From a virus: DNA of 64,000 nt. The translations under genes were made by a program, and so were the position numbers. Below the pieces are notes generated by a model. It did no database searches and was not told the DNA's origin. It was given only the letters and a program-made list of their open reading frames with translations. Of the stretch, positions 8,738-20,856 are shown piece after piece; within the stretch, counting starts at the first letter, position 1, and the number at the start of each line of letters is the position of its first letter. The stretch spans positions 221,128 to 285,127 of the IMG/VR virus record IMGVR_UViG_3300032240_001991; one strand, written 5' to 3'.

Positions 8738-11011
8738 ATGTTAGAACCAGATAAAGAATTGTCAAGCATGTTTGAACATGCAATACATACAGCAATTGAA
8801 TATAATCACGAATACATTACATTGGAACATTTTCTTTACGGAATGATTTCTAACGATTCGTTTAGCGAAATGCTTACACAGTACGGTGCAGACGTACCAG
8901 GATTAAAAAATAATTTAGAAAATTATATCGATACTAATTTAGCGTCAATTGCAACTTTGCAAAAAAACGAAAGGCCACAAAAAACAAATACTGTAGAAAG
9001 AATGCTTAACAGAGCATTTACACAGGTACTATTCAGTGGGCGTCAGCAAATCTCTCCTATAGATTGTTTGATTAGTTTTTTCTCAGAAAAGAACAGTCAT
9101 GCAAACTTTTTTATGAGAAAGGCTAAGATTGAAAAAGAAACATTTTTGGAATTTGCTATGAATAATAGTTCTTCGTCTGAAGAAAAAGAACAGTCTACAG
9201 TAAACGAAAAACAGATCGAAAAGTTTTTAATTCAGTACTGTGCTAATCTAACAGAAAAAGCCAAAAACAAAAAAATTGACCCGGTAATTGGTCGAGAAAA
9301 AGAAATTGAGGATTTAATATTGATCCTTGCTCGTCGTAATAAGAGCAATGTTATGCTTATTGGCGACCCGGGTGTAGGCAAAACAGCTATTGCTGAAGGA
9401 GTTGCTCGTAAAATTGTTGAAGGCGACGTTCCTACTTTTATACAGAATCATAGTGTATATTCACTGGATATCAGTGCAATGTTGGCGGGTAGTAAGTACC
9501 GCGGTGATTTTGAAGAGCGTTTGAAAAATGTTCTTACCGCATTAGAAAAGAAAAAGAATTGCATTCTTTTTATTGATGAAGCTCACATGATGAGCGGTGC
9601 TGGAGCGGTCAATGGCAATAGTAACGATATGAGTAATATGCTCAAACCTGCACTTGCTAAAGGTAGCATTAAAGTTATAGCTAGCACAACCTGGGAAGAT
9701 TTCCGCAAGAACTTTGAAAAAGATCGTGCACTTATGCGGCGATTCCAGCGAGTTATGGTCAACGAACCAAATGAAGAAACTGCTATTAAGATCGTTAAGG
9801 GTGTAAAAAAGTATTACGAAAAGCATCACAAGGTAAAGATTACTAATCAAGCAGTGATTGACAGCGTAAAATACAGTATTAAGTATATTTCAGATAAAAA
9901 ATTACCTGATAAGGCATTGGATCTTATTGATTGTGCTAGTGCAAGATTTAAATTGCGTGACGAAGACGGGGGCGTTGTTGACCACGACGAAATTGTTTTT
10001 GAAGTTGCAAAGATTACAGGGTTGCCACTAGATCAAATTGCTGCCAAAGAAAGCAATAATCTTAAGGATCTTGAAAAAAACATGCGGGCAAAAGTGTATG
10101 GTCAAGATAAAGCCATCGAAGCATTGCTTGATAAGATCTTTATTGCACAGGCGGGGCTAAAATCAGTCAATCGTCCAATTGGTAATTTCTTGTTTGTTGG
10201 CCCAACTGGTGTTGGAAAAACTGAAGCGGCGAAACAACTTGCAGCCAACATGGGAGTAAAGTTGATTCGATTTGATATGAGTGAATATCAAGAACAACAT
10301 TCAGTAGCTAAATTTATTGGTAGCCCCCCAGGATATGTTGGGTTTGATGATAATGCAGGACAGTTGATTACACGTCTACAGGAAAATCCAAACGGAATCT
10401 TACTGTTTGATGAAGTTGAAAAGGCACACCCTAGTGTGTTAACTATTCTACTTCAGTTAATGGATAATGGATTTGTTACTGGTAGTAATGGAAAAACTGC
10501 AGACGGTCGTAATGCTATCATTATCATGACTAGTAACTTAGGTGCAGCAGATTCTGAAAAGAATTCAGTTGGATTTGGTAGTTTAGAACGAGATAGTGAT
10601 CCTAAGGATGCTGTTAACAAGTTCTTTGCACCAGAATTTCGTAATCGTTTAGACGGAACTATTAAGTTTGATCGACTAGATCATAGTACTATGGCATTAA
10701 TTGTTAAGAAATTTATCGACGATCTTAACGGTTTGGTCAAAGATCGAAATGTACATGTTCGGTTAAGTACCGAAGCTGTTGAACATTTGATCAAAAAAGG
10801 ATTTGATCGAAAGATGGGAGCTCGTCCGCTACAGCGTACAATTGATGAACACATAAAAAAGCCGTTAAGTAAGGAAATACTATTTGGTAATCTTATTAAC
10901 GGAGGTATTGTTGAAATTACCATTGTAGATGACGCGCTTACCTTTAAATTTGTAGATGTATTGCCAATTAAAGAAATAAAAGAAAATGAGCATCAAAGTT
11001 CTAGCAACTAA
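8738..11011 (+). CDS. clpA: ClpA-type AAA+ unfoldase
   Basis: 757 residues, about the length of bacterial ClpA (758). An N-terminal Clp repeat domain (ELSSMFEHAIHTAIEYNHEYITLEHFLYG) is followed by D1 with Walker A GDPGVGKTAIAEG and Walker B CILFIDEAHM, and D2 with GPTGVGKTEAAKQL and ILLFDEVEKAHP, then FFAPEFRNRLDG. There is no long ClpB middle domain, so it is ClpA- rather than ClpB-like. In front of FAPEFRNRL stands the tripeptide VGF, where ClpA has IGL and ClpC/ClpX have VGF or IGF; this loop docks ClpP. No phage ClpP is seen, so it probably uses host ClpP. Confidence 0.9.
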   Translation: MLEPDKELSSMFEHAIHTAIEYNHEYITLEHFLYGMISNDSFSEMLTQYGADVPGLKNNLENYIDTNLASIATLQKNERPQKTNTVERMLNRAFTQVLFSGRQQISPIDCLISFFSEKNSHANFFMRKAKIEKETFLEFAMNNSSSSEEKEQSTVNEKQIEKFLIQYCANLTEKAKNKKIDPVIGREKEIEDLILILARRNKSNVMLIGDPGVGKTAIAEGVARKIVEGDVPTFIQNHSVYSLDISAMLAGSKYRGDFEERLKNVLTALEKKKNCILFIDEAHMMSGAGAVNGNSNDMSNMLKPALAKGSIKVIASTTWEDFRKNFEKDRALMRRFQRVMVNEPNEETAIKIVKGVKKYYEKHHKVKITNQAVIDSVKYSIKYISDKKLPDKALDLIDCASARFKLRDEDGGVVDHDEIVFEVAKITGLPLDQIAAKESNNLKDLEKNMRAKVYGQDKAIEALLDKIFIAQAGLKSVNRPIGNFLFVGPTGVGKTEAAKQLAANMGVKLIRFDMSEYQEQHSVAKFIGSPPGYVGFDDNAGQLITRLQENPNGILLFDEVEKAHPSVLTILLQLMDNGFVTGSNGKTADGRNAIIIMTSNLGAADSEKNSVGFGSLERDSDPKDAVNKFFAPEFRNRLDGTIKFDRLDHSTMALIVKKFIDDLNGLVKDRNVHVRLSTEAVEHLIKKGFDRKMGARPLQRTIDEHIKKPLSKEILFGNLINGGIVEITIVDDALTFKFVDVLPIKEIKENEHQSSSN

Positions 11012-13622: not shown

Positions 13623-14072
13623 ATGGAAAAACTAGTTAACGCAGCAAAAATAGGACTCGCTAGCTCTTTTAGTTTCTATCTAAAGGCGCAGCACTTTCAC
13701 TGGAACGTTGAGGGTCCAGACTTTTTAGAATATCACGATTTGTTTGGTAAAATTTACGACGAAGTTTATGGTAGCATTGATTCATATGCCGAAAAAATTC
13801 GAGCATTGGGTGGGTACGCTCCGTCTAGCTTAAGTGAATTTGCCAAAATAACACAAATTGAAGATCAGTTAGAAGTATTACCTAAAGAACAAATGGTACT
13901 AGTTCTGCTAGAAGATAATAGAAAAATGCTAAAGATATTTAAAATAGTTTATGATTTTGCTGAAGCTGAAGGTGAACATGGGTTTAGCAACTTTTTAGCA
14001 GAACGAATGGATGCACATCGCAAGCACGGATGGATGTTATCTGCTAGCATGAAAGGCCAAGGGCAGCTATGA
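13623..14072 (+). CDS. Dps-like ferritin
   Basis: 149 residues. The Dps signature is complete: AQHFHWNVEGPDFLEYHDLF and IDSYAEKIRALGG supply the two His, Asp and Glu of the inter-subunit ferroxidase site. Length fits a single four-helix Dps subunit. Dps proteins oxidise and store iron, detoxify peroxide and can coat DNA. Reading from a late-type promoter suggests it acts late or is packaged, rather than being an early takeover gene; that is inference. It overlaps the next gene by four bases. Confidence 0.85.
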   Translation: MEKLVNAAKIGLASSFSFYLKAQHFHWNVEGPDFLEYHDLFGKIYDEVYGSIDSYAEKIRALGGYAPSSLSEFAKITQIEDQLEVLPKEQMVLVLLEDNRKMLKIFKIVYDFAEAEGEHGFSNFLAERMDAHRKHGWMLSASMKGQGQL

Positions 14073-15375: not shown

Positions 15376-15645
15376 ATGAGTAAAGTATTTGGTGATCCAG
15401 AAAAGGCAAAGATTCGTCAAATCGTTTCCGAAGGTGTAACTGTAATGCAAGAAATTACAGATTTGACCGAAGGTCTTAACGATACAATCAAAGCTGTAGC
15501 CGAAGAATTGGAAGTTAAGCCTGGTGTTATTAAGAAAGCAATTCGTATTGCTCTTAAGGACCAGTGGGATCAGGTATTCCGTGAGTTTGATGATCTAGAA
15601 ACAATCGTTGATATCAGCGGCCATGCTAATCGCAGGGAAGACTAA
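15376..15645 (+). CDS. DsbA-like small DNA-binding protein
   Basis: 89 residues, the same length as T4 DsbA (double-stranded DNA binding protein that acts on late promoters). Helical, with ITDLTEGLNDTIKAVAEELEVKPGVIKKAIRIALKDQWDQVF, which fits the helix-turn-helix-like core of that family (KDELGV..K.FN.LL.LYHK in T4). Its own sigma70-like promoter and a strong terminator make it a single-gene unit, suitable for high early expression of a regulator. The assignment rests on length and pattern, not on a computed alignment. Confidence 0.5.
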   Translation: MSKVFGDPEKAKIRQIVSEGVTVMQEITDLTEGLNDTIKAVAEELEVKPGVIKKAIRIALKDQWDQVFREFDDLETIVDISGHANRRED

Positions 15646-15661
15646 GGACCTCCTTAGTCTT
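15638..15661 (+). terminator. Hairpin terminator after the DsbA-like gene
   Basis: Perfect 11-base inverted repeat AAGACTAAGGA (15638-15648) and TCCTTAGTCTT (15651-15661), followed by TCTAT. The stop codon TAA (15643-15645) lies inside the 5' arm. It would separate the small regulator from the polymerase gene. It is followed three bases later by a late promoter. Confidence 0.75.
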
Positions 15662-15663
15662 TC

Positions 15664-15671
15664 TATAAATA
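15664..15671 (+). promoter_or_regulatory. Late promoter box TATAAATA upstream of gp43
   Basis: Exact TATAAATA directly after the terminator, 73 bases before the gp43 ATG. It would give a leader of roughly 65-70 bases containing both operator hairpins. Confidence 0.55.
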
Positions 15672-15680
15672 ATAAAAATA

Positions 15681-15738
15681 AGGTTAGACCAGCCATAAAT
15701 GGTCATGTAAAGGTTAGTGAGCCACAAATCACTAGGAG
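15681..15738 (+). promoter_or_regulatory. Tandem hairpins before gp43: putative translational operator
   Basis: Two stem-loops in tandem, each opened by AGGTTAG. Hairpin 1: GACCA (15687-15691), loop GCCATAAA (15692-15699), TGGTC (15700-15704). Hairpin 2: TAGTGA (15715-15720), loop GCCACAAA (15721-15728), TCACTA (15729-15734), touching the ribosome site GGAG at 15735-15738. The stems differ but both pair perfectly, while the 8-base loops differ at one position. T4 and RB69 gp43 repress their own translation by binding a hairpin with a 5-bp stem and 8-base loop at this same place, so this is most likely the equivalent operator. Confidence 0.75.
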
Positions 15739-15744
15739 ACGAGT

Positions 15745-18432
15745 ATGAGTTACGTTGATGCCATCTGGGATCGCGACGACGATGTTATTAGAGTCGTTGA
15801 AAGAGATCCAAAAAAAGGTCGTATATTCCACGACTATCCCGCAAAATATATTTTTTATTACCCTGACCAAAAGGGCAAGTATAGAAGTATTTTCAGTGAA
15901 ACCCTTACAAAGGTAACTTCTAAAAGTTTTAAAGAACATCAAAAAGAACAAAGAATACACAGCGGTCATCGACTCTACGAAAGCGATATCAATCCTATAT
16001 TTCGTTGTCTAGAAGAAAACTATCTTGGCCAAGATTCGCCCAAATTAAACGTAGCATTTTTTGACATCGAAGTGGACTTTGATCCAGAAAGAGGATATGC
16101 AAGTCCAGATGATGCGTTTATGCCTATTACTGCTATTGCGGTACATTTACAGTGGCTTGATACTCTAGTATGTTTGGCTATTCCTCCAAAATCTCTTTCT
16201 ATGAGTCAGGCACAGGAATTAGTTAAAGATATACCTAATACAGTACTGTTTGAAACAGAGCACGAACTGTTAGATACGTTTCTTAATCTAATTGAAGATG
16301 CAGATGTTCTAAGCGGCTGGAACAGTGAAGGTTTTGACGTTCCTTATACTGTTAATCGAGTTACTAAAGTCCTTAGCAAAGAAGACACTAAGAGATTTTG
16401 TCTTTGGAATCAATTACCAAAAAAGAGAGAATACGAAAAATATGGTAAGCAGGCAGTAACATACGACTTTGTTGGTCGTGTACATTTGGACAGTCTTGAA
16501 CTATATCGAAAATATACCTATGAAGAGCGACACAGCTACCGACTTGACGCGATAGGCGAAATGGAGATTGGTGAAACTAAGACTGTTTATGAAGGTACCC
16601 TAGATCAGTTATACAACAGCGATTTTCGTAAATTTGTTGAGTACAACAGACAAGACTGTGCCCTATTGGACAAGTTAGATAAAAAGTTAAAATTTCTTGA
16701 CCTAGCTAGTACTATTGCTCACGAAAATACAGTTCTACTTAAAACTGTTATGGGAGCTGTAGCAGTTACTGAGCAGGCTATTGTAAATGAAGCACATCGT
16801 TTAGGTATGATAGTTCCTAGTCGTAAACGCAGAAGCGACAGTGACGATCCTGAAGATGAAAACGACGATAAGGCAGCAGGTGCATATGTAGCATATCCTA
16901 AAAAAGGATTGCATGATTGGATTGGTTCGATGGACATTAATAGTCTGTATCCGTCTGTTATTCGTGCACTAAACATGGGACCCGAAACTATCATTGGACA
17001 ATTACGCCCAGACTATACCAAAGCAGAAATTGACAGTAAGATAGCTAAAAAGATGAGCTTTGCAGGTGCATGGGAAGGTAAGTTTGGCAGTAACGAATAT
17101 GAAATGGTTATTAACAAAGATCGTGTTCGTGAAATTACTGTTGATTGGGAAGATGGACGCAATGATGTATTGAGCGGAGCGCAACTGTATGAATTGATTT
17201 ACGAAAGTAATCATCCATGGATGCTCAGTGCTAACGGTACTATTTTTACCTACGAAAAAGAAGGAATTATTCCTGGACTTCTAGCTCGATGGTACAAGGA
17301 ACGCAAAGAGCTACAAAAGAAACTTAAAGAAGCAATTGACGCAGGTAATAAAACTGATGAAGAATATTGGGATAAGCGGCAGCTAGTTAAGAAAATTAAT
17401 CTAAACAGCTTGTACGGTGCTATTCTTAACGCTGGTTGTAGATTCTTTGACAATCGAATTGGACAATCAACTACGCTAACTGGGCGTCGTATTGCTAAAC
17501 ATATGGCTAGTAAAATTAACGAAATTATTACTGGGGAATACAACCATTTAGGTAAAGCAATTATTTACGGCGATACTGACAGTGCATACTTCAGTGCTTA
17601 CACTACGTTAAAGAACGAAATTGAAAAAGGTCTTATCCCTTGGGACAAAGAAACAGTAATTCAACTTTATAATACTGTAGCAGAAGAAGTTAATAGTACA
17701 TTTCCTCAAATGATGTTAGATGAATTTCATTGTCCAAAGAAGAGAGGGGATGTTATTCGCGCAGGACGAGAGATTGTAGCCAGTAAAGGCTTGTTTATTA
17801 CTAAAAAGCGTTATGCGGTGTTGTATTACGACAAAGAAAACAAGCGACAAGATATTAACGGCAAGCCCGGTAAGATCAAGGCAATGGGTCTAGATCTAAA
17901 ACGCAGCGATACTCCAGAATTTATGCAGGACTTCTTAAGTGAAATTCTAAATAGCGTACTAACTGGTTCTCAAGAAAAAGAAATTCTTGATCGTATTACA
18001 GAATTTCGTACTGAGTTTAAGTCTCGAGCAGGATGGGAAAAGGGTACACCTAAGCGTGTTAACAATCTTACAGAATATCAAGCTAAGGAAGAAAAGCAAG
18101 GTAAAGCTAATATGCCCGGACATGTTCGTGCGTCAATTAATTGGAATACATTACGTCGTATGAATGGCGACAAATATTCTATGCAAATTGTAGACGGAAT
18201 GAAAGTAATTGTTTGCAAAGTAAAAGATAATCCGTTAGGGTTTACTAGTGTTGCCTACCCAACAGACGAGTTACGACTTCCCAAATGGTTTCAAGATTTG
18301 CCATTTGATCACGACGAAATGGAAGCTGTTATTATTAACAATAAGGTAGAAAATCTTATCGGTGTTCTTGAATATGATCTAGAATCAACAGTTCGAGATA
18401 CAACATTTAACAAACTATTCAGCTTTGAATAA
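15745..18432 (+). CDS. 43: DNA polymerase gp43 (family B)
   Basis: 895 residues, same length class as T4 gp43 (898). Proofreading exonuclease motifs: FFDIEVDFD, SGWNSEGFDVPY and YNRQDCALLD. Polymerase motifs in order: A at MDINSLYPSVI (about residues 394-404), B at KKINLNSLYGAILN and C at YGDTDSAYF. The C-terminus ends KLFSFE, in keeping with the short clamp-binding tail of T4-like polymerases. Uninterrupted by introns or inteins. ATG at 15745 follows GGAG, which is covered by the second leader hairpin, so the enzyme probably limits its own translation. Confidence 0.97.
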   Translation: MSYVDAIWDRDDDVIRVVERDPKKGRIFHDYPAKYIFYYPDQKGKYRSIFSETLTKVTSKSFKEHQKEQRIHSGHRLYESDINPIFRCLEENYLGQDSPKLNVAFFDIEVDFDPERGYASPDDAFMPITAIAVHLQWLDTLVCLAIPPKSLSMSQAQELVKDIPNTVLFETEHELLDTFLNLIEDADVLSGWNSEGFDVPYTVNRVTKVLSKEDTKRFCLWNQLPKKREYEKYGKQAVTYDFVGRVHLDSLELYRKYTYEERHSYRLDAIGEMEIGETKTVYEGTLDQLYNSDFRKFVEYNRQDCALLDKLDKKLKFLDLASTIAHENTVLLKTVMGAVAVTEQAIVNEAHRLGMIVPSRKRRSDSDDPEDENDDKAAGAYVAYPKKGLHDWIGSMDINSLYPSVIRALNMGPETIIGQLRPDYTKAEIDSKIAKKMSFAGAWEGKFGSNEYEMVINKDRVREITVDWEDGRNDVLSGAQLYELIYESNHPWMLSANGTIFTYEKEGIIPGLLARWYKERKELQKKLKEAIDAGNKTDEEYWDKRQLVKKINLNSLYGAILNAGCRFFDNRIGQSTTLTGRRIAKHMASKINEIITGEYNHLGKAIIYGDTDSAYFSAYTTLKNEIEKGLIPWDKETVIQLYNTVAEEVNSTFPQMMLDEFHCPKKRGDVIRAGREIVASKGLFITKKRYAVLYYDKENKRQDINGKPGKIKAMGLDLKRSDTPEFMQDFLSEILNSVLTGSQEKEILDRITEFRTEFKSRAGWEKGTPKRVNNLTEYQAKEEKQGKANMPGHVRASINWNTLRRMNGDKYSMQIVDGMKVIVCKVKDNPLGFTSVAYPTDELRLPKWFQDLPFDHDEMEAVIINNKVENLIGVLEYDLESTVRDTTFNKLFSFE

Positions 18433-18487: not shown

Positions 18488-19222
18488 ATGAAAGAAATTC
18501 TCAAAGACATTGTAAGTCATACGTATAACCTAGGCTTTCTCAATATTGTTAAGGTTACCGGCGAAGAAACATCAACTAAAATTGACTCTATGAGTGATGA
18601 CCGTTCAGTTATTATGTACGGCGAAACCGCTAACCCATATCCAGATATGATTGGTGTATTTGGCATGCCGCAACTTAACAAACTTAAGTATCTAGTTGAA
18701 GGTAATGAATACAAGGAAGATGCGACTATTGATATTGTTAAAGCAGAAATTAATGGCGTAACTGTTCCAGTTGGTATTCACTTTGAAAATGCAAGCGGTG
18801 ACTTTAAAAACGATTATCGTTTTATGAATACTGCAATCATTAACGAAAAACTTAAGACTGTAAAATTCCGTGGTGCAAGTTGGGATGTTGAAGTTACTCC
18901 AAGCCTACAGGCTGTACAGAGATTTGGGTTCCAAGCTGGTGCTAACAGCGAACATACTACCTTCCTTGTTAAGACTGAAGGCGGAAACCTAAAGTTTATC
19001 TTTGGCGATCAAAGTACTCACGGTGGTGAATTTGTGTTTGCTACTAATGTTACTGGCAAGCTAACTCGTTCACATACTTGGCCAGTTGCTTCTATTCTCA
19101 GCATTTTAAAAATTGCTGATGTTAACAACTGCAAATTGAGTATTAGCGATGCTGGTGCATTGCAGATTACTATGGATAGCGGATTAGCCACATACAAGTA
19201 TATTATTCCAGCGCAGGCTTAA
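18488..19222 (+). CDS. 45: Sliding clamp gp45
   Basis: 244 residues, near the T4 gp45 length of 228. The two-domain clamp pattern of T4-like phages is visible: YNLGFLNIVKVTGEETSTKID with SMSDDRSVIMYGET, then VKFRGASWDVEVTPSLQAVQRFGFQAGANSEHTTFLVKT and a final beta strand LATYKYIIP. It forms the ring that holds gp43 on DNA and, in T4, also activates late transcription. It sits directly after gp43 with its own promoter. Confidence 0.9.
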   Translation: MKEILKDIVSHTYNLGFLNIVKVTGEETSTKIDSMSDDRSVIMYGETANPYPDMIGVFGMPQLNKLKYLVEGNEYKEDATIDIVKAEINGVTVPVGIHFENASGDFKNDYRFMNTAIINEKLKTVKFRGASWDVEVTPSLQAVQRFGFQAGANSEHTTFLVKTEGGNLKFIFGDQSTHGGEFVFATNVTGKLTRSHTWPVASILSILKIADVNNCKLSISDAGALQITMDSGLATYKYIIPAQA

Positions 19223-19227
19223 TTATA

Positions 19228-20856
19228 ATGAAATCATCAGTTAATTTAACTCCTTTGCAGAAAGACTATGCGGTATATCTTCCAGCTATATCCTCTTTCT
19301 ATAGCACCTATGTTGCTAAACAAAGACTAGAAGAATTTGTACCTGCTGATCGTATTCCTAAAGGATTTGATCGAGGTATTGAAGGTATGAACTTCTTAGA
19401 TCCTGAACAAGGCTATTTTAGCTACAAATACGCCTTGTATTCTGCAGGTCATGCACAGCTAGATCTTAATAAAAGTCTAGTACAGGAATCTATGATTCAA
19501 CAGCGAGATCGAGCTAATACTATGATACTTGGTGACTCTGGTGGTTACCAGATTGGTAAGGGTGTCTTAAAATTTGACTGGTTAGACTTTGAAGGTGCTA
19601 GTGCAAATAAAACTCGTCAGCAGATCTTAGAATGGCTCGAACTTACTGCTGATTGGAGCATGTTCCTTGACGTTCCAACCTGGGCATGCGATCATATACA
19701 TAGTCCAAAGACAGGTTTAAAAACATTTGATGACTGTTTGAATAAAACTAAGTTCAACAACGAATATTTCCTAAAGAATCGATTAGGGCAAACTAAATTC
19801 CTAAACGTACTACAGGGCAGCGATTGGGATACTGCTGAAAAGTGGTATAACGGCGTTAAGGAATTTAGTGATTCTAAAGTATGGGGAGATAAGGCTGCAG
19901 AAGGATGGGCGTTTGGTGGCGCTAACATGTGTAAAATGGATATTACACTAAAGCGTCTAATGACCATGCGCGATGACAACATGCTCAAAGGTAAGGATTG
20001 GATTCACTTCCTAGGCACAGCACAGCTAGACTGGAGTTGTTATCTAACGTCAATACAGCGTCAGATTCGTAAACATATTAACGAAAATCTTACTATTAGC
20101 TTTGACTGTGCAAGTCCATTTATTGCTACTGCACACGGATTGGTTTACACAAATGCACAGCATAATCCAAAGCGTTGGTCAGTTATCATGGATAAGGCGC
20201 CAGATAATAAAGCACTCGCAGGAAGCGATATTCCATTTCCGTTTGAGTCAGAAATTGGTAGACGCTTAACGATGGGCGATATTGCTTACTACAATATTGG
20301 AGTTCCTAAAACTCAAGAAGAATTGGGTGCTAGCGTTAAATTTGATCATTTAAATCCAGATCATTATAATGAGGTTCCTAAACTTAACAAATTAGGAAAA
20401 ATTCCTAATAAAACTTCTTGGGATAGTTTTAGCTACGCATTAATGATGGGTCATAATGTCTATTGTCATATTGTTGCAGTACAAAGAGCGCAGCATTTAA
20501 TGGACATTGAATGTGCTAAATTTAAACCAGATTGGCGTATGTGGGGACTAGAAGGAAAGAAAGAACGCGAATTGAGCGATTGGGTTCCAAGAAAGATCTT
20601 GTACTTTGATAGATTTATCAAAGAACTATTTGAAACCTCAACGAAGAAAGAAGCATTTGAAATGATCGATGCTGCTCGAGATAATGGTTTCCTTAAGAAT
20701 CTTGAAGGCGCTCGATTACAAGGTGGTCCGGCTCAAAATCAATTTGGTACTTTCTTTGAGATAGAACAGGAATCTTTCAAACAAGAAGAAATTGATCTAG
20801 CAAATCCAGATGACGATGAACTAAGAGCACTAGAAGAAAGTGTTGACAAAACCTAA
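19228..20856 (+). CDS. dpdA: DpdA-like DNA 7-deazaguanine transglycosylase
   Basis: 542 residues, related to tRNA-guanine transglycosylase. The key TGT signature appears as ILGDSGGYQIGKG (TGT: SDSGGFQ) with the Asp that contacts the base, followed by a barrel-like pattern: MFLDVPTWACDH, FLNVLQGSDW, GWAFGGANMCKMD (TGT GG loop), IHFLGTAQLDWSCY and ISFDCASPF with the likely nucleophile Asp. A CxCxxC zinc site as in tRNA TGT is not evident. Phage DpdA enzymes swap guanine in DNA for a 7-deazaguanine. The folE, queE and QueD-like genes downstream support this. Which base is finally made is unknown. Confidence 0.8.
   Translation: MKSSVNLTPLQKDYAVYLPAISSFYSTYVAKQRLEEFVPADRIPKGFDRGIEGMNFLDPEQGYFSYKYALYSAGHAQLDLNKSLVQESMIQQRDRANTMILGDSGGYQIGKGVLKFDWLDFEGASANKTRQQILEWLELTADWSMFLDVPTWACDHIHSPKTGLKTFDDCLNKTKFNNEYFLKNRLGQTKFLNVLQGSDWDTAEKWYNGVKEFSDSKVWGDKAAEGWAFGGANMCKMDITLKRLMTMRDDNMLKGKDWIHFLGTAQLDWSCYLTSIQRQIRKHINENLTISFDCASPFIATAHGLVYTNAQHNPKRWSVIMDKAPDNKALAGSDIPFPFESEIGRRLTMGDIAYYNIGVPKTQEELGASVKFDHLNPDHYNEVPKLNKLGKIPNKTSWDSFSYALMMGHNVYCHIVAVQRAQHLMDIECAKFKPDWRMWGLEGKKERELSDWVPRKILYFDRFIKELFETSTKKEAFEMIDAARDNGFLKNLEGARLQGGPAQNQFGTFFEIEQESFKQEEIDLANPDDDELRALEESVDKT

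Follow-up and report, generated by a model that had tools for sequence, protein, structure and literature searches.

Tandem pseudoknots predicted before the DNA polymerase gene of an uncultured giant phage: a probable autogenous operator

Leader operators and the gp43 locus

The DNA polymerases (gp43) of phages T4 and RB69 bind a hairpin in the leader of their own mRNA, and the AC or AA bases at the 3′ side of the loop matter in T4, RB69 and RB49 (PMC3014915). In T4 gp43, the binding of specific RNA and the binding of DNA are mutually exclusive (PMC535899). According to a 2010 review of post-transcriptional control in T4, the gene 32 leader pseudoknot may be the sole viral example with a role in translational autoregulation (PMC3014915). 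Among cellular genes, the rpsO operator of E. coli (ribosomal protein S15) uses a leader pseudoknot for autogenous translational control. The preQ1-class riboswitches are very small H-type pseudoknots with an A-rich loop, located near the Shine-Dalgarno sequence.

The window (the whole stretch of DNA analysed, 64,000 nt) comes from a virus record of 326,658 bp and carries a gp43-type polymerase gene, presumed to be both the regulated gene and the source of the repressor. Its product matches Pfam DNA_pol_B and DNA_pol_B_exo1, and the closest solved structures are those of RB69 gp43 (1clq, E = 1e-56). The 99-nt gap between this gene and an upstream 89-aa gene contains two hairpins (5–6 bp stems; loops GCCAUAAA and GCCACAAA) placed 5′ of the gp43 ribosome-binding site. 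The features of the locus are as follows.

15664–15671, + strand: T4-late-promoter-like box TATAAATA, from sequence, 10 nt before the GGU of unit 1
15682–15704, + strand: distal pseudoknot (unit 1), predicted from folding, covariation and a covariance model (37.9 bits)
Unit 1, elements: S1a GGU 15682–15684; L1 UA 15685–15686; S2a GACCA 15687–15691; S1b GCC 15692–15694; L3 AUAAA 15695–15699; S2b UGGUC 15700–15704
Unit 1, hairpin as read from the sequence, + strand: stem GACCA 15687–15691 / TGGTC 15700–15704, loop GCCATAAA 15692–15699
15712–15734, + strand: proximal pseudoknot (unit 2), predicted from folding, covariation and a covariance model (23.6 bits)
Unit 2, elements: S1a GGU 15712–15714; S2a (U)AGUGA 15715–15720; S1b GCC 15721–15723; L3 ACAAA 15724–15728; S2b UCACU(A) 15729–15734
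Unit 2, hairpin as read from the sequence, + strand: stem TAGTGA 15715–15720 / TCACTA 15729–15734, loop GCCACAAA 15721–15728
15735–15738, + strand: Shine-Dalgarno GGAG, immediately 3′ of S2b of the proximal pseudoknot
15745–18432, + strand: gp43-type family B replicative DNA polymerase, 895 aa, ATG at 15745 (PHROG 262, E = 1e-193)

A preliminary description of this DNA had reported both hairpins, and its stems, loops, letters and coordinates agree with the sequence at 15681–15744, as does its observation that the second stem abuts the GGAG of the gp43 ribosome site. The 6-bp stem that it gave for unit 2 is paired in the sequence, but the outer U-A pair (the sixth) probably opens in the pseudoknot, leaving an L1 of 1 nt where it would otherwise be 0.

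Folded as a single sequence, the leader shows both hairpins in the MFE and centroid structures, with z = -1.74 and 13 of 200 shuffles equally good, and GCCAYAAA taken alone occurs at chance frequency across the window. The signal from one sequence is therefore modest, and comparative data decide.

Compared with the T4/RB69 gene 43 operator, the locus is alike in having a small RNA structure directly 5′ of the ribosome site of a gp43 from the same polymerase family, in its 5-bp stem and 8-nt loop, and in an A-rich loop (-UAAC- in T4 and -UAAA- in RB49, per PMC3014915; -UAAA- in unit 1). The classic AGCCU-AAUAACUC-GGGCU hairpin was present in the T4 record, confirming the loop AATAACTC; the published -UAAA- hairpin of RB49 was not located in the unannotated RB49 record. 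However, the T4/RB69 operator is a single plain hairpin whose loop AAUAACUC has a -UAAC- core, whereas here there are two units in tandem, each an H-type pseudoknot using an upstream GGU, with the loop consensus GCCNNAAN and with the proximal unit abutting the Shine-Dalgarno sequence. Since it differs in both loop sequence and fold, the element was not classed with the T4-type gp43 operators. The review finds no evidence of a pseudoknot in the gene 43 operator (PMC3014915), and recognition here would have to differ.

The gene 32 leader of T2, T4 and RB69 is similar in placing an H-type pseudoknot before a phage replication gene for autogenous control (a role only proposed here), but it serves another gene and protein, is present as a single copy 67 nt upstream of the start, and is followed by an A+U-rich region that is coated cooperatively; the two compact units of the gp43 leader are spaced by about 29 nt and lie beside its Shine-Dalgarno sequence. 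The likeness to gene 32 is one of topology only. The rpsO operator also shares the leader pseudoknot and the presumed mode of control, but it is single and belongs to a cellular ribosomal protein. Unlike the preQ1-class riboswitches, the units are in tandem, match no Rfam family and do not recur in front of other genes in this genome. No description of tandem gp43 leader pseudoknots was found in the open-access literature.

The surroundings of the polymerase gene have several other features. At the end of the upstream gene (15638–15661) is an inverted repeat with perfect 11-bp pairing and arms 2 nt apart, followed by TCTA; it is possibly a terminator or another element separating that gene from the gp43 unit. 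A scan of the leader for sigma-70 promoters and terminators found none. Directly after the polymerase lies a 244-aa protein (18488–19222; PHROG 12062, unknown function); phage Phosso has a gene of similar size, annotated as a sliding clamp, at the second position downstream of its polymerase. Next is a 542-aa protein (19228–20856) with a GDSGGYQIGKG segment, TGT/DpdA-like by eye. Upstream are genes for a ferritin-like (Dps-type) protein (13623–14072) and a ClpA/ClpB-like AAA+ ATPase (8738–11011).

Pairing and covariation within the units

Both units start with GGU, a short fixed distance from the stem and complementary to loop bases 1–3 (GCC). To limit circularity, this pairing (S1) was sought as [AG]G[CT] 5–9 nt from the loop with loop letters ignored, while the hairpin finder itself required C2 in the loop and AA close to its end. 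All 217 GCC loops had an upstream GGU or GGC, all 19 GCU loops had AGU or AGC (fully Watson-Crick as AGC/GCU in the leaders L132 and L168), and both ACC loops had GGU. The sole exception (L188) has a UCC loop with GGU, which breaks one S1 pair, the third.

A FastTree built from 138 gp43 proteins shows five origins of the double S1 change from G-C to A-U, four for the distal unit and one for the proximal. The upstream G-to-A and loop C-to-U changes occur in identical rows of the alignments, with no half-changed rows. With four and one informative pairs where six are required, a sign test on the tree gave no p-value below 0.05, so support for S1 is drawn from the perfect concordance and the repeated origin of the change. 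At the third S1 position U usually pairs with G; the opposite strand would have A-C there, and the signal therefore belongs to the strand of the gp43 mRNA.

Stem S2 was examined in alignments of 45 distinct distal and 34 distinct proximal units, excluding units with 9-nt loops and the few distal units with a bulge in S2. Sequences were aligned in a fixed register with N in L1, as MAFFT mis-registered S1 across units of different length. Over the full structure (S1 and S2), 97.5% of distal and 97.4% of proximal cells are paired, compared with 79% and 84% in shuffles and less than 50% whenever the register is slid. Covariation extends to each of the five S2 pairs of both units, with changes on either side of the pair. 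In 131 distinct cores, pairs 2–5 alternate between GC, CG, AU and UA, plus G-U, without a mismatch, while the outermost pair is often open. The preliminary description had argued for covariation within one molecule, from the two differing stems; the same is now upheld between molecules, against both kinds of control.

Unit geometry (S1 of 3 bp, L1 of 0–3 nt, S2 usually of 4–6 bp, L2 of 0, and an A-rich L3 of 5 nt) fits the H-type assignment. The 8-nt loop is closed by a 5-bp stem, and a minority of units have 9-nt loops. Covariation thus shows each unit to be a compact H-type pseudoknot, in which the upstream GGU pairs with GCC of the loop. The earlier view, that of a T4-type hairpin with a swapped loop, holds for the stem-loop and is superseded by S1 covariation for the fold as a whole. 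The AGGTTAG prefix shared by the units had been noticed but its pairing role was missed; it appears functional because its GGU pairs with the loop.

The loop had been given as GCCAYAAA, which the alignments of relatives replace with GCCNNAAN, containing an invariant AA. Bases C2, A6 and A7 are invariant in the 131 distinct cores, partly by construction since detection demanded both C2 and AA, though AA is also seen in undirected alignments. Such invariant loop bases are as expected for protein contacts, and the AA is suggestive of a parallel with the loop bases of T4 and RB69.

Occurrence among relatives and the link to gp43

A protein-based scan of IMG/VR listed 80 close relatives with gp43 72–81% identical, and two further scans extended the set to at least about 240 loci. 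All 80 of the nearest listed relatives carry two units directly before the gp43 start, usually ending at a purine-rich ribosome site. The RNA structure is therefore conserved in relatives with the same gp43, the comparison by which the preliminary description proposed to judge its reading, which is not refuted by it. Both units are typical at gp43 identities of 70% or more. Between 60 and 68%, many leaders have one, proximal unit; below about 60% no convincing unit was found, only isolated weak candidates. The claim that the phage had duplicated its operator needs rewording, as the two units are common to the clade of at least 70% identity, while sister lineages have the proximal pseudoknot only.

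In single-pseudoknot sister clades (L158, L170, L181, L141, L131, L143 and others) a different hairpin replaces the distal unit. It lies about 45–55 nt before the gp43 ATG, typically as C-G(4–5 bp stem)-loop-stem-C-AUG; its loops include ACUUAC and CCGUAAA, and its stems vary in sequence but keep their pairing. In one sister subclade (L158, L170, L179, L150 and others) S2b runs into the Shine-Dalgarno sequence (CGG-AG).

The spacing of the two units is nearly constant. The loop-to-loop distance is 28–30 nt in all 98 two-unit leaders (29 nt in 70), and the linker varies oppositely to the length of L1 plus S2a of unit 2 (rho -0.86). The resulting spread is 0.53 nt, against 1.78 nt expected under independent variation; because the sequences share ancestry, this compensation is indicative and does not amount to a test. 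A TAA[AG]TA box is found 9–15 nt upstream of the unit-1 GGU in about 76–77 of 99 leaders, with a gap of 11–12 nt in 62. The corresponding box of the window, TATAAATA, resembles a T4 late promoter and may act as one; if so, transcripts would start a few nucleotides downstream, and unit 1 would form the 5′ terminus of the mRNA. Some relatives have TATAAT in place of this box.

Three DNA patterns for the units, which made no use of gp43, gave at least 330 matches in IMG/VR. Of the 330 matches listed, 319 have a gp43 start within 150 nt. The other 11 comprise four short contig ends with a readable gp43 N-terminus (L365, L285, L290, L304), one contig that breaks off within the leader (L505), and six matches, from five loci, where a small ORF lies between leader and gp43. 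Where read, this ORF is Cys-rich (50, 53 and 63 aa), although the loci do not all encode one and the same protein; the overlap of its stop with the gp43 ATG (ATGA) points to translational coupling. Where the small ORF intervenes (L363, L541, L542, L278), the putative operator precedes it. A similar arrangement occurs in three close relatives without an adjacent motif (L192, L211, L236), and probably also in two loci of the GCU clade with a unit 173–194 nt upstream (L134, L136).

A covariance-model search of the 326-kb genome found the units at gp43 only (next best E = 0.16), and the weak extra matches at E 0.16–5 (L263–L267) are within the range of chance. Strong matches in the records of 12 relatives were the known leader units. 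In Rfam, no family, preQ1 riboswitches included, matched 15620–15780 at the gathering score or at E ≤ 5. The conservation of both structures, the constant distance between them and their confinement to the gp43 operon are thus established, and the element belongs to a large and widespread group of uncultured giant phages. It is absent from the cultured phages Phosso, Atu_ph07, Vibrio 2.275, GAP32, 121Q, Munch, XaC1 and K64-1, and blastn of the leader against cultured phages gave short, weak matches only. Contigs of bacterial and archaeal genomes contained no gp43 relative and no motif match, and so give no clue to the host.

Proposed translational control of gp43

The tandem pseudoknots are most probably an autogenous translational operator for gp43, a reading to which we assign a probability of about 0.7, judging from the sequences and from analogy with T4. 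It would act in the manner of the T4/RB69 operator. The gp43 mRNA leader folds into two tandem H-type pseudoknots 29 nt apart, each with a 3-bp S1 (GGU:GCC), a 5-bp S2 and an A-rich 5-nt L3 with invariant AA, the second touching the Shine-Dalgarno sequence. Free gp43, when in excess over DNA template, would bind the pseudoknots and block ribosome entry, so that the polymerase would limit its own synthesis, and two sites would permit cooperative or graded repression. At high concentration, T4 gp43 can form complexes of two polymerases on the clamp, with an interface that is however poorly conserved (PMC12746103), so the placing of two polymerases on the two pseudoknots is a hypothesis only.

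This operator is the best explanation because it accounts for a conserved fold next to the Shine-Dalgarno sequence, for the unpaired A6 and A7, and for placement at gp43 only, which is what an autogenous gp43 operator predicts, in a polymerase family with known autorepression. Of the gp43 RNA operator first proposed, a conserved, duplicated element found only at the gp43 start wherever searched has been retained, and the plain hairpin has not. Counted against the operator are T4-related gp43s that do not autoregulate (PMC3014915), the frequent lack of the motif with gp43s of 55–65% identity, its absence in Phosso, Atu_ph07 and 121Q/GAP32-type phages, and one close relative (L198, gp43 72% identical) that has no unit in the 700 nt before gp43.

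The rival explanations are weaker, as none of them predicts gp43-only placement together with conserved loop bases. It is unlikely, though the strongest of these alternatives, that a phage protein other than gp43, such as a gp32-like SSB, a RegA-like repressor or the small protein encoded just upstream, binds the pseudoknots. T4 gp32 does recognise the H-type pseudoknot of its own mRNA leader before coating an A+U-rich stretch cooperatively (PMC3014915, PMC535899), but that control targets gene 32, RegA acts on many unstructured sites, and a motif confined to gp43 in the searched genomes is unexpected for a repressor with other duties or with its own gene to control. A passive 5′ element, stabilising the mRNA end or fixing the translation rate with no trans-acting ligand, is a less probable account again. 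It would suit a transcript starting just before unit 1 from the promoter-like box 10–12 nt upstream, and 5′ structures generally protect mRNAs, but it leaves unexplained the conserved unpaired loop bases, the strict S1 covariation, the 29-nt spacing and the exclusive use at gp43.

Least probable, and very doubtful, is a miniature tandem riboswitch, in which the pseudoknots would bind a small molecule (a nucleotide or 7-deazaguanine) and gate the polymerase Shine-Dalgarno sequence. Small H-type pseudoknots with an A-rich L3 abutting that sequence do resemble the preQ1 class, and by eye the second gene downstream, with its GDSGGYQIGKG segment, resembles TGT/DpdA, but searches of Pfam, PHROGs, NCBIfam and PDB gave this 542-aa protein no match and so do not support that identity. 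Rfam offered no match at any threshold, no unit stands before biosynthetic genes of the genome, and few bases are invariant enough to form a ligand pocket. If it were true, the level of the replicative polymerase would be coupled to a nucleotide or deazaguanine; we know of no phage in which DNA replication is under small-molecule control through such an RNA.

If the autogenous operator is correct, this is likely the second viral case after gene 32, with a structure that has strong comparative backing, in tandem, at about 23 nt per unit, and at the gene of a replicative polymerase. The fixed 29-nt spacing makes a model of cooperative repression by two polymerases testable, and so minimal a pseudoknot offers a well-constrained object for structural work on RNA recognition by B-family DNA polymerases. 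The autoregulation of gp43 would then have been rebuilt in these phages with a different RNA fold.
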